64,000 bases of DNA from Turneriella parva DSM 21527 (GTDB taxonomy: Bacteria; Spirochaetota; Leptospiria; Turneriellales; Turneriellaceae): positions 4,154,001 through 4,218,000 of the forward strand of contig NC_018020.1 in NCBI RefSeq assembly GCF_000266885.1, written 5' to 3'. Shown in pieces: positions 8,519 to 51,176 of this stretch. Made by a program: the position numbers and the translations under genes. The stretch's first letter is position 1. Each line of letters starts with the position of its first letter. The notes under the pieces are model-generated. The model was not told the origin of the DNA. It saw only the letters and a list, made by a program, of their open reading frames with translations, and did not search any database.

Positions 8519-8659
8519 AGGCTGTCCCGCAACCCGGTGATTTGGCATGCATGCGCTGTTGCGAGACGAGCGGCGGCAGGCCGTTTCGGCCGCTTTAACA
8601 GGCGTTTGCGCACGCAAATGCCGAGGCCGACGCTGGTCTTCCGGGTTACGGGACAGCCT
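8519..8659. repeat. Palindromic multi-hairpin element, copy 1
   Basis: The 19-base ends AGGCTGTCCCGCAACCCGG (8519-8537) and 8641-8659 are inverted repeats with one mismatch. Between them lie two further hairpins: GGCCG/CGGCC around TTT (8579-8591) and the TTTGCG/CGCAAA stem (8604-8617). The core at 8571-8608 matches 29242-29280, inside rsmG, at about 32 of 39 aligned positions. The right end covers the last four codons and stop of the minus-strand gene at 8646. It looks like a small mobile or structured repeat. Confidence 0.75.
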
Positions 8660-9167
8660 TGATTTGTTCGTCGGGTGTCGGCGCAGGCTTATCGACAGCG
8701 CACTTTGCCTGGTTTTCGATATACCAGGCGCCCTTCGTATACGCGAATGAAAATGTACCCGAAGGGGCTGCGTCAGTACGGTAGCAAGCCTTGTTGTCTC
8801 TGATCACAATATCTTTTACAGAAATCTGTTTCAGCACATTGAGAAGCTTAACGCCCTTCTCACTGCCCCAGACTTCATAGTTGATGCCGCCCTGTTTGGC
8901 GTATGCCTGCTCGAACCGGCGCCGGTCTTCGGGCGAAACGAATGCCTGAATGAACTGTTCGTATGCCTTGCCCTCGAGCATCAGCACGCCGGCGTCGATC
9001 AGGTTTCTGAGCATCACCTCGCGCTCGTCAATTTTGGCAACAGGTGAGGATGCAGAGTTTTTAGCGGCCGGTGCCTCGGCTGCGGTGAGTGGGGTCGCCG
9101 TACCATAAAACGAGGCCCCGGTAAATATCACCCCGAGCCACAGATGCAGCTGCCACATTTTCAGCAT
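8646..9167 (-). CDS. Exported protein of unknown function
   Basis: A 173-residue product with a hydrophobic N-terminus (residues 8-24) and an alanine-rich linker typical of a Sec-exported periplasmic protein. The middle part (MLEGKAYEQFIQAFVSPEDR) and the C-terminal half with two Cys are not assigned to a family. The last codons, encoding KAVP and the stop, lie inside the right arm of a palindromic repeat, so the present C-terminus may have been set by that element. It is transcribed alone, converging on the kdsA cluster. Confidence 0.6.
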   Translation of the reverse strand: MLKMWQLHLWLGVIFTGASFYGTATPLTAAEAPAAKNSASSPVAKIDEREVMLRNLIDAGVLMLEGKAYEQFIQAFVSPEDRRRFEQAYAKQGGINYEVWGSEKGVKLLNVLKQISVKDIVIRDNKACYRTDAAPSGTFSFAYTKGAWYIENQAKCAVDKPAPTPDEQIKAVP

Positions 9168-9523
9168 GGAGTAAAGGAGCAGAGCGAGGCGAGCGCGTCC
9201 ACAGAAAAACAGGTTGCGCGACAGGTCGCAATACGACGAAATTCAGGAAAAGACCCGCGATTTTCCGCGCGAAAATCGCTGTATGAACGGGCTTTGGCCC
9301 GCTTTTCCTGAATTTCGTCGTTTCGCCTTGGAGCTGAAATATCCAATACGGCGACCTGCCGCGCAGCCCCATGCGGCTTTTGCTTGTCGCACTGTTTCAA
9401 AGCCCCATTAAGGCGGGAAGAGCCGGGTCGCCAAAGTGCATTCTGGCCTTATATAAGGGAGAAATCCACCTATGGCAAGAGTGCCGCAGGCGGTTTTTTC
9501 CATAAAACGGACAGGGAGCAGCA
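9168..9523. other. 356-base intergenic region with nested inverted repeats
   Basis: This divergent intergenic region separates the exported-protein gene from the beta-oxidation operon. Positions 9212-9368 are a nested palindromic element, listed separately. The rest (9369-9523) must hold the operon promoter. A CTTATATAAGG palindrome near 9449-9459 could include a -10-like TATA sequence, but I cannot define a clear -35. A GGGAG ribosome-binding site lies just before the ATG at 9524. No small gene is convincing here. Confidence 0.5.
9212..9368. repeat. Nested palindromic element upstream of the beta-oxidation operon
   Basis: Outer arms at 9212-9229 and 9351-9368 pair at 16 of 18 positions. Inner arms CGACGAAATTCAGGAAAAG (9234-9252) and 9302-9320 pair perfectly over 19 bases. 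Within the loop, GCGATTTTC pairs with GAAAATCGC, and CGGGC pairs with GCCCG. Bases 9354-9369 are identical to the reverse complement of 2890-2905. The architecture is a long stem with side hairpins, like the elements near 8.6 kb and in rsmG. Confidence 0.75.
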
Positions 9524-28205: not shown

Positions 28206-28969
28206 ACGGCCACCTTCTGCCGGCTGAGCAGATCTTTTGCGAGTGTCTTATAGGCGATTGCCCCCGTCGACTGCGGATCGTAAACACTGATCGGCTGCCC
28301 GAATGACGGCGCCTCAGACAGTTTGACGTTTCGCGGTATAATCACGTCATATACCTGTTTCTTGAAATGTTCGCGCACATCTTGCACCACCTGAGAGGCA
28401 AGGCGCGTGCGCGCATCGAACATGGTGAGCAGCACACCCTCGATTTCGAGCGCAGTATTGAGTTTCGTGCGCACAAGATTGATGATGCGCAAGAGCTGCG
28501 TTAACCCTTCGAGCGCGAAATATTCGCACTGCAGCGGAATCAGCACCGAATTGGCAGCGGTGAGCGCGTTGATGGTGAGAATGCCGAGGCTTGGCGGGCA
28601 GTCGATAAGCACAAAATCAAAATCGTTGGCGAGTGTTTTGAGCCGGTCTTTGAGCACGAAGTCGCGATTCGCGTTGTCGCGCACGTCAATTTCAAAACCC
28701 GAAAGGTCGATATTCGCGGGTATTATTTTCAGGTTCGGCTGATTGGTCGGTTGCGCCGGCGAGGTATCGTCGGTACCAATCAGCCAGTGGTATATGGTAT
28801 TCTTAGCCTCGGCGATGTTAAGGCCGAGGCCGCTGCCGGCATTACCCTGAGGGTCGATATCGATGATCAGCACGCGCTGCCCTTCGTTCGCGAGGTATGC
28901 GCCGAGATTGATCGTCGTCGTCGTTTTGCCGACGCCACCTTTCTGGTTTGCCAATGCCACTACTTTCAT
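28202..28969 (-). CDS. parA: Chromosome partition ATPase ParA
   Basis: A 255-residue deviant Walker A ATPase (KGGVGKTTTTINLG at residues 10-23), with Walker A' IDIDPQGNAGSGLG and Walker B FVLIDCPPSLG. It binds DNA without sequence specificity in the ATP state and moves ParB-parS complexes. The start codon overlaps the rsmG stop (TAATG), and the end overlaps parB. The order rsmG-parA-parB is often near the replication origin, so the origin may not be far away, although no dnaA or mnmG is seen. Confidence 0.97.
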   Translation of the reverse strand: MKVVALANQKGGVGKTTTTINLGAYLANEGQRVLIIDIDPQGNAGSGLGLNIAEAKNTIYHWLIGTDDTSPAQPTNQPNLKIIPANIDLSGFEIDVRDNANRDFVLKDRLKTLANDFDFVLIDCPPSLGILTINALTAANSVLIPLQCEYFALEGLTQLLRIINLVRTKLNTALEIEGVLLTMFDARTRLASQVVQDVREHFKKQVYDVIIPRNVKLSEAPSFGQPISVYDPQSTGAIAYKTLAKDLLSRQKVAV

Positions 28970-29877
28970 TATGACTCTGTATCAACGAGCGTGTCGGCTG
29001 AGATTTTTTTCCACGAGCGGGGGTACGGTTTTTTAGCAGCCGTTTCGTGCGCGAACGTATAAAGCCCCCGCGGCAATACACTCGCAGCGGATTCAAATTT
29101 AACAAATGATTCTGTTTTGTACCCGAGGTCTGTCACACGCTGCTCTCCAGCGGCAGAAAATGGCACTCTCTGAGACCGCCAGTAAAGCAATTTTGGCGAT
29201 TGCAAAGCAATCGCCTCAGACCGCAACGGCCCCGCAAAATTCGGCGGGCAGCCCGCTTCGGGCGCTTTAGCAGAAGTTTGTTGCGGCGTTTTCTGAAACG
29301 ACGCGGGCAAACTTCGAGGCCCGTCCGATTTTGCGGATCCAGGCCGTTGCCGGTCTTTTGGCGCTGCGCTCAACACATGCAAAGCCAACTCCAGTGAAGC
29401 GAGTATCTTTCTGAACGCTCTGAAAACGACAACGTCGGCCTTCGGCGCGGCAGCGTATTTTTTGGGAAAATCCTGCACGACGCCGTGGTAGACCGTGACG
29501 TTACTCAATCCTAATTTTGCTGCTGCAGACTCTGCAAAACGGCAACGCTTCTCTTGCGCATCGAGCAGGTGAAATTTGTGCTGCGGATAGAGAATCGCAA
29601 GGGGTAGCGACGGCAAACCTGAACCGGCGCCGAGATCGAAGACATTGAGCCCTTCGCCCGCATTCAGCGGAAATCGCTCGCGTGTTTCGGGTGCAATCGC
29701 GGGCAACACCGAATCAAAAATATGCCGCAATTCAAGGTCGGCGCGCGTACACTCACCGATAAAACCTGCGGGCATTGCTTCGGCTTCAAGCAGATCGGCG
29801 AAGGTCTGCAGGTTGGCGAGTACGGGCGCTGTCAGATGCGCAGACAGCGGGGCGTAGGCGATATCGGCGACAGACAC
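28969..29877 (-). CDS. rsmG: 16S rRNA (guanine-527-N7)-methyltransferase with in-frame insertion
   Basis: Methylates G527 of 16S rRNA with SAM. Family parts are ELRHIFDSVL, the SAM-binding motif VFDLGAGSGLPSLPLA, LLDAQEKRCRF and the catalytic-region segment VVVFRAFRKIL. RsmG is normally 205-240 residues; this one is 302. The excess is about 57 residues (173-229), rich in Pro, Ser, Lys and Gln, lying before LLYWRSQR where the fold normally continues. That segment is encoded by a palindromic DNA element, copy 2 of the repeat found near 8.6 kb. The frame is kept through it, so the protein may still work. Confidence 0.9.
   Translation of the reverse strand: MSVADIAYAPLSAHLTAPVLANLQTFADLLEAEAMPAGFIGECTRADLELRHIFDSVLPAIAPETRERFPLNAGEGLNVFDLGAGSGLPSLPLAILYPQHKFHLLDAQEKRCRFAESAAAKLGLSNVTVYHGVVQDFPKKYAAAPKADVVVFRAFRKILASLELALHVLSAAPKDRQRPGSAKSDGPRSLPASFQKTPQQTSAKAPEAGCPPNFAGPLRSEAIALQSPKLLYWRSQRVPFSAAGEQRVTDLGYKTESFVKFESAASVLPRGLYTFAHETAAKKPYPRSWKKISADTLVDTES
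29191..29361. repeat. Palindromic multi-hairpin element inserted in frame in rsmG, copy 2
   Basis: The segment contains a 9-bp hairpin GGCGATTGC/GCAATCGCC (29195-29215). Long outer arms follow: GACCGCAACGGCC at 29219-29231 pairs with 29342-29355 apart from one bulged base, and CCGCAAAAT at 29232-29240 pairs with 29328-29336. Inner hairpins are GCGGG/CCCGC, GCCCG/CGGGC and GAAGTTTG/CAAACTTC with CGTTT/AAACG inside. The core matches the intergenic element at 8571-8608. Its length, about 171 bases, is a multiple of three. The exact ends are estimated from where RsmG homology stops. Confidence 0.75.
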
Positions 29878-51132: not shown

Positions 51133-51176
51133 CCCGTTCCGTAGGGGTAGGTTTAAACCTACCCCTACGGAACGGG
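51133..51176. repeat. Perfect 44-bp palindrome
   Basis: CCCGTTCCGTAGGGGTAGG and its continuation to the centre at 51154/51155 are mirrored exactly to 51176, with no loop and GTTTAAAC at the centre. It lies between the divergent ABC ATPase gene and the gene at 51218. It could be an operator for both, a cruciform site or a mobile-element scar. Confidence 0.85.

Follow-up and report, generated by a model that had tools for sequence, protein, structure and literature searches.

The 141-nt palindrome at positions 8519-8659 of the window, a 64-kb stretch of Turneriella parva DNA, is a member of a family of structured, mobile, non-autonomous elements. Its inner 80 nt are the family head, which has about 50 copies in the T. 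parva genome. The copy number, the covariation among copies, the target duplications in relatives and the empty sites together establish a real mobile structured family, as the original prediction had proposed on the basis of shared pairing and a shared core. The family, its structure, its dispersal, the relatives' target duplications and the empty sites are all observed. The most probable overall explanation is that these are non-autonomous palindromic MITE-like transposable elements of the Turneriella group with a conserved four-branched head, which would be moved in trans by their ends while the head is kept for its shape.

Anatomy of the element at 8519-8659

The complete element (plus strand, taken as the strand reading GCTTTAACA) was delimited by inverted-repeat, folding and BLAST analyses. 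Arm complementarity and a search with the terminal inverted repeat (TIR) pattern placed the 19-nt left TIR at 8519-8537 (plus) and the 19-nt right TIR at 8641-8659 (minus). As first described, the ends are inverted with one mismatch: 18 of 19 positions pair (95% complementary). The 64-kb window has no further occurrence of the TIR pattern (0.04 expected), and in the T. parva genome only the window copy and C1:1059731-1059870 have paired TIRs of this type, AGRCTGYCCCGYAACCC. The folded strand has a z-score of -6.47 against dinucleotide shuffles, and the predicted fold of the 141-nt element is unusually stable.

The head occupies 8562-8641 (plus; genome C1:4162562-4162641), where the element matches the covariance model R1 from end to end. 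The score of 72.8 bits (genome-wide E 1e-14; the window copy is among the 23 copies from which the model was built) means that the element is more than chance. Within the head, GCA (8576-8578, plus) precedes hairpin H1, read and folded as GGCCG-TTT-CGGCC (8579-8591, plus). The invariant linker GCTTTA(G/A)CA follows (8592-8600, plus); in the drawn structure it forms a 2-bp mini-hairpin, GC-TTTA-GC, followed by an A. It reads GCTTTAACA in the window copy, with A for G, and GCTTTAGCA in nearly all others. Hairpin H2, of 9-10 bp (8601-8622, plus), is freely variable and covarying across copies, and in the alignment an unpaired GAG (8623-8625, plus) separates it from the outer stem. The same order of internal hairpins was read at about 29234-29334, in the copy within rsmG, as the first reading of the window had noted. 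The right arm supplies the stop codon (8646-8648, minus) and the last three sense codons of the convergent ORF 8646-9167 (minus), which therefore ends within the element.

Two other inverted repeats were seen in the window. The palindrome at 9228-9326, in the spacer after the start of the next gene, has 25-nt arms that are 92% complementary and lie 49 nt apart. A perfect 22-nt inverted repeat with zero spacer is found at 51133-51176.

Copies and distribution

The T. parva genome was searched in full (4,409,302 bases in two contigs), and all copy counts come from such searches. BLAST with the 141-nt element returned partial copies, about a dozen in number, which with few exceptions cover its inner part. 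The strict pattern CGCTTTAGCAG-N14-44-CGAGGC gave 39 genome matches and none in the reversed control. One of the 39, C1:802514, folds differently from the others. A genome-wide search with a structure model had been suggested at the outset; R1, built from 23 aligned copies, yielded 50 T. parva matches at E<0.001. All six congeners examined contain R1 matches (5-27 each), as does a second genus of that family (5 matches), whereas a further 40 genomes from the class gave none. Across 84,980 species the strict pattern matched 30 times, always in spirochaete records. In viral contigs there were five pattern matches, of which two scored, weakly, with R1 (20-21 bits); these five are probably chance.

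No Rfam 15 family matched the head above its gathering cut-off. At a relaxed threshold, five copies gave just tRNA and one sub-threshold match. The literature searched contains no paper describing this palindromic family, and it is apparently an undescribed family of small mobile DNA elements. At copy L033 (genome C1:252 kb), a stretch of about 20 bp resembling a tRNA 3' end recurs on either side, like an integrase attachment site, and copy L049 (genome C1:1.82 Mb) sits within a tRNA gene cluster.

Covariation and the folding strand

The copies share one plan: a long variable outer stem, A, H1, GCTTTAGC, A, H2, GAG and the outer stem back. H1 ranges from 7 to over 30 nt, and many T. parva copies carry an additional hairpin directly ahead of the outer stem. 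In the 23 aligned copies, 91.9% of the cells of the drawn structure are paired, against 70.6% after shuffling, and 149 cells are changed on both sides, against 44. The covariation score is 0.538 (0.164 when shuffled, 0.07-0.12 when the structure was slid). The head stems therefore covary massively, while the unpaired bases hardly vary: GCAG, CGCTTTA, CAG and CGAGGC are invariant in this alignment (the linker G is once A, in the window copy), for which the collecting pattern itself enriches. Most of the copies found with R1 that were read also keep these bases. In the G001 copies L264 and L267, two extra hairpins stand in place of part of the GAG segment.

Since the copies retain one four-branched fold despite differing stem sequences, some mechanism or selection preserves the folded shape. 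Such a mechanism could act without selection: template switching during replication would homogenise the arms of a palindrome, letting stems drift yet stay complementary. Stem changes are indeed nearly all double-sided and G.T pairs are rare. However, the unpaired A, A, GAG and linker survive uncorrected, and among the stems of 100 copies from all genomes there are 43 G.T and 15 A.C cells (18 and 4 in H2 alone), a roughly threefold excess that symmetrical correction does not predict. This makes arm homogenisation an improbable account of the covariation. The p-value of the asymmetry, 0.0003, is optimistic because the test takes related copies as independent. Equal numbers would be expected from pure duplex or from arm homogenisation, and from the inequality the strand whose folding matters appears to be the GCTTTAGCA strand.

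GNA triloops, which are found in RNA as well, close 32 of 99 H1 hairpins. Many of these hairpins read exactly GCGNAGC, and each of the four bases is seen at N. By analogy, the loop types favour single-stranded DNA as the folding molecule and are compatible with RNA too: d(GCGNAGC) is an extraordinarily stable DNA mini-hairpin with a Tm of 78 C (PMC4686876). Under the preferred explanation, the head would fold on one strand once the palindrome is single-stranded, in replication, in an excised intermediate or in a transcript. It would be retained because a protein or process reads the unpaired A, A and GAG together with the shape, and not the stems.

Target duplications and empty sites

In the relatives G004, G005 and G006, copies lie within larger MITE-like palindromes with shared ends, namely GGGCGCGNGATTT.. 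with 8-bp duplications and GGGTGCGGGCGCGTTTTGTGGG with 9-bp duplications. The duplication scan required inverted ends and 8-9-bp direct repeats with at most one mismatch; 14 copies in relatives passed it, against 0.6 per shuffled control. Examples of the duplicated targets are GGTTGCTG, ACGGTTGC, GTTACCTA and GGGGTCGAG. The head was found inside several different TIR types. Near-identical copies at unrelated G004 sites show recent movement.

In T. parva, the majority of copies are built on long palindromic stems instead of a common TIR. The TIR-based scan of this genome found no target duplication, and a TIR-free scan found no excess of duplications over chance. The target-site duplications that were to be looked for are thus present in the relatives and probably at the rsmG copy, and none was found at the window copy.

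Comparison of relatives for presence and absence, also proposed originally, revealed empty sites for both copies in the window; neither site is occupied in every relative. At the locus of the window element, G006 has retained the three genes, and the short spacer there contains no element. The element is also absent from G001, G002 and G005, where the neighbours are rearranged. Among about 45 T. parva copies, 2 (at rpsI and tRNA-Gln) could be matched to a copy at the corresponding site of a relative, G003, a count that depends on incomplete drafts. Most T. parva copies look old and stationary.

The rsmG copy (29199-29355, plus) was identified from the pattern, R1 and alignments, and lies in frame within rsmG (ORF 28969-29877, minus); its head was located at about 29234-29334 by the R1 match. 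Flush with it is an 8-bp direct repeat, TTTTGGCG, with the left member at 29191-29198 (plus) and the second at 29356-29363. The 157-nt element and one 8-bp repeat make 165 bp, or 55 codons, inserted in frame. The insertion is absent from five relatives: their RsmG proteins align to residues 2-170 and 224-302, and between these blocks they have from a few residues up to about a dozen. Taken by itself, the repeat could be chance; the alignment breakpoints agree with a 157+8 bp insertion, and from the sequence TTTTGGCG is a probable target duplication.

Candidate movers

At roughly 140-250 nt the elements lie below the size limit of about 500 bp for a MITE and are too short for a transposase gene. 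An autonomous partner in organisms of the G004/G005 type would carry the TIR GGGCGCGCGATTT... or GGGTGCGGGCGCG.... TIR searches of T. parva and the relatives' draft genomes found neither an autonomous element nor a transposase bearing the family's ends, which is weak evidence as the relatives are drafts. The matches returned, including L186, which was read for ORFs, were rejected as partners, being only MITEs and truncated ends. With no autonomous source found, the elements are called MITE-like rather than proven MITEs.

Three MITEs (L182, L183 and L188) lack the head, have the same ends and are flanked by the duplications AATCAAATG, TTATATATT and TGCAAAAG. Their sequences resemble the outcome of slippage deletion between short repeats. 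As they retain target duplications, transposition does not require the head.

The original prediction had suggested a REP-type (RAYT) mover. Y1 HUH transposases bind single-stranded hairpins, which is what the family would offer; both of its hairpins are preceded by GCAG, as REP hairpins are by GTAG, and T. parva encodes three Y1 transposases. Nevertheless, none of the eight Y1 loci tested has a convincing family copy nearby, and PF01797 has no match in either G003 or G004 (drafts 82-83% complete), where 18 and 11 family copies, respectively, were found. On these results RAYT involvement was set aside as unsupported. The relatives also show long TIRs with 8-9-bp duplications, a pattern not known from Y1 enzymes. 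Movement by RAYT or another Y1 enzyme is therefore very unlikely.

Integron attC sites are recognised as folded single strands by their shape and extrahelical bases. The occurrence of the same head within several TIR types, and its conserved unpaired bases with free stems, recall this logic, and the head might be a recombination site that a recombinase reads as a folded single strand and that hitch-hikes in different MITEs. However, no attC R-box is visible by eye, there are no cassettes, the copies are scattered instead of arrayed, and the head-less copies resemble slippage deletions. Of all the explanations weighed this is the least credible. The preferred one is that a host transposase making 8-9-bp duplications would move the elements in trans via their ends.

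Genomic placement

Placement was assessed with a simple codon-based gene caller, without curated annotation. Nearly all of the roughly 42 T. parva copies examined are intergenic, the rsmG copy being the clear exception. The copy follows a gene read in the same direction in 29 of 41 cases, commonly with 46-98 nt from stop codon to linker. Convergent spacers are enriched: they hold 19 of 40 copies, while of the window's 59 gene pairs 10 are convergent (p 0.0015). The rpsI element varies less between species than its coding flanks (86% and 79% identity), with several of its differences in loops, which suggests that this copy may be used at the 3' end.

The elements could accordingly be cis-acting mRNA structures, terminators or 3'-end stabilisers kept by selection on expression, with incidental mobility. 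Their 3' placement and convergent bias agree with this, as do plus-strand folding and the conservation between species of the rpsI and tRNA-Gln copies, whose loops or neighbouring sequence diverged. On the other hand, copies also lie in divergent regions and opposite to the direction of both neighbours, and one is on the opposite strand within rsmG. A T-tract terminator scan of the window copy found none on the element, relatives have recent copies with target duplications, and Rfam offers no match. Overall, a cis-acting role as the main explanation is unlikely. Tolerance accounts for part of the convergent and 3' placement; as MITE-like elements, T. parva copies near stop codons, often between convergent genes, would be tolerated there and perhaps serve as a 3'-end structure or terminator.

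Comparison with known repeats

Bacterial MITEs such as QMITE2, ERIC and BOX are short and non-autonomous, with TIRs and transcripts that would fold; QMITE2 has direct repeats of 7-9 bp (PMC10969869). The Turneriella family resembles them in length, non-autonomy, TIRs and the 8-9-bp duplications of relatives. It differs in its multi-branched head with invariant unpaired bases, which is common to elements with differing TIRs and dispensable for movement. Rickettsia palindromic elements, palindromes of about 150 bp scattered in the genome, can sit in frame inside genes (PMC10969869). The scattered Turneriella palindromes are of similar size, with an in-frame insertion in rsmG. Rickettsia elements are mostly inside genes, whereas the Turneriella family is nearly all intergenic, with one clear in-gene case in about 42. 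REP/GTAG and CGTC repeats with RAYT (PMC3733652) are likewise short tagged hairpins with many intergenic copies. The Turneriella tag is GCAG, not GTAG or GTGG, and the four-way head, TIRs and duplications, with no RAYT association found, set the family apart. In its workings the Turneriella element resembles a MITE, and its rsmG copy a Rickettsia palindromic element.

Significance of the family

The dispersed repeats of a genome are usually alike in sequence; here about 50 copies differ at nearly every stem position, and the covariation signal is unusually strong for a mobile element. In a free-living spirochaete, the family is also a new source of in-frame insertions into proteins. A more speculative and rather unlikely possibility is that the head constitutes an autonomous signal of folded single-stranded DNA, recognised by its shape, which several transposon types carry and from which they draw a benefit other than transposition (e.g. 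protection, replication or targeting). If so, the head would represent a new class of mobile DNA signal, coded in structure. The family offers a ready system for asking whether selection acts on the way transposon DNA (or RNA) folds when single-stranded.
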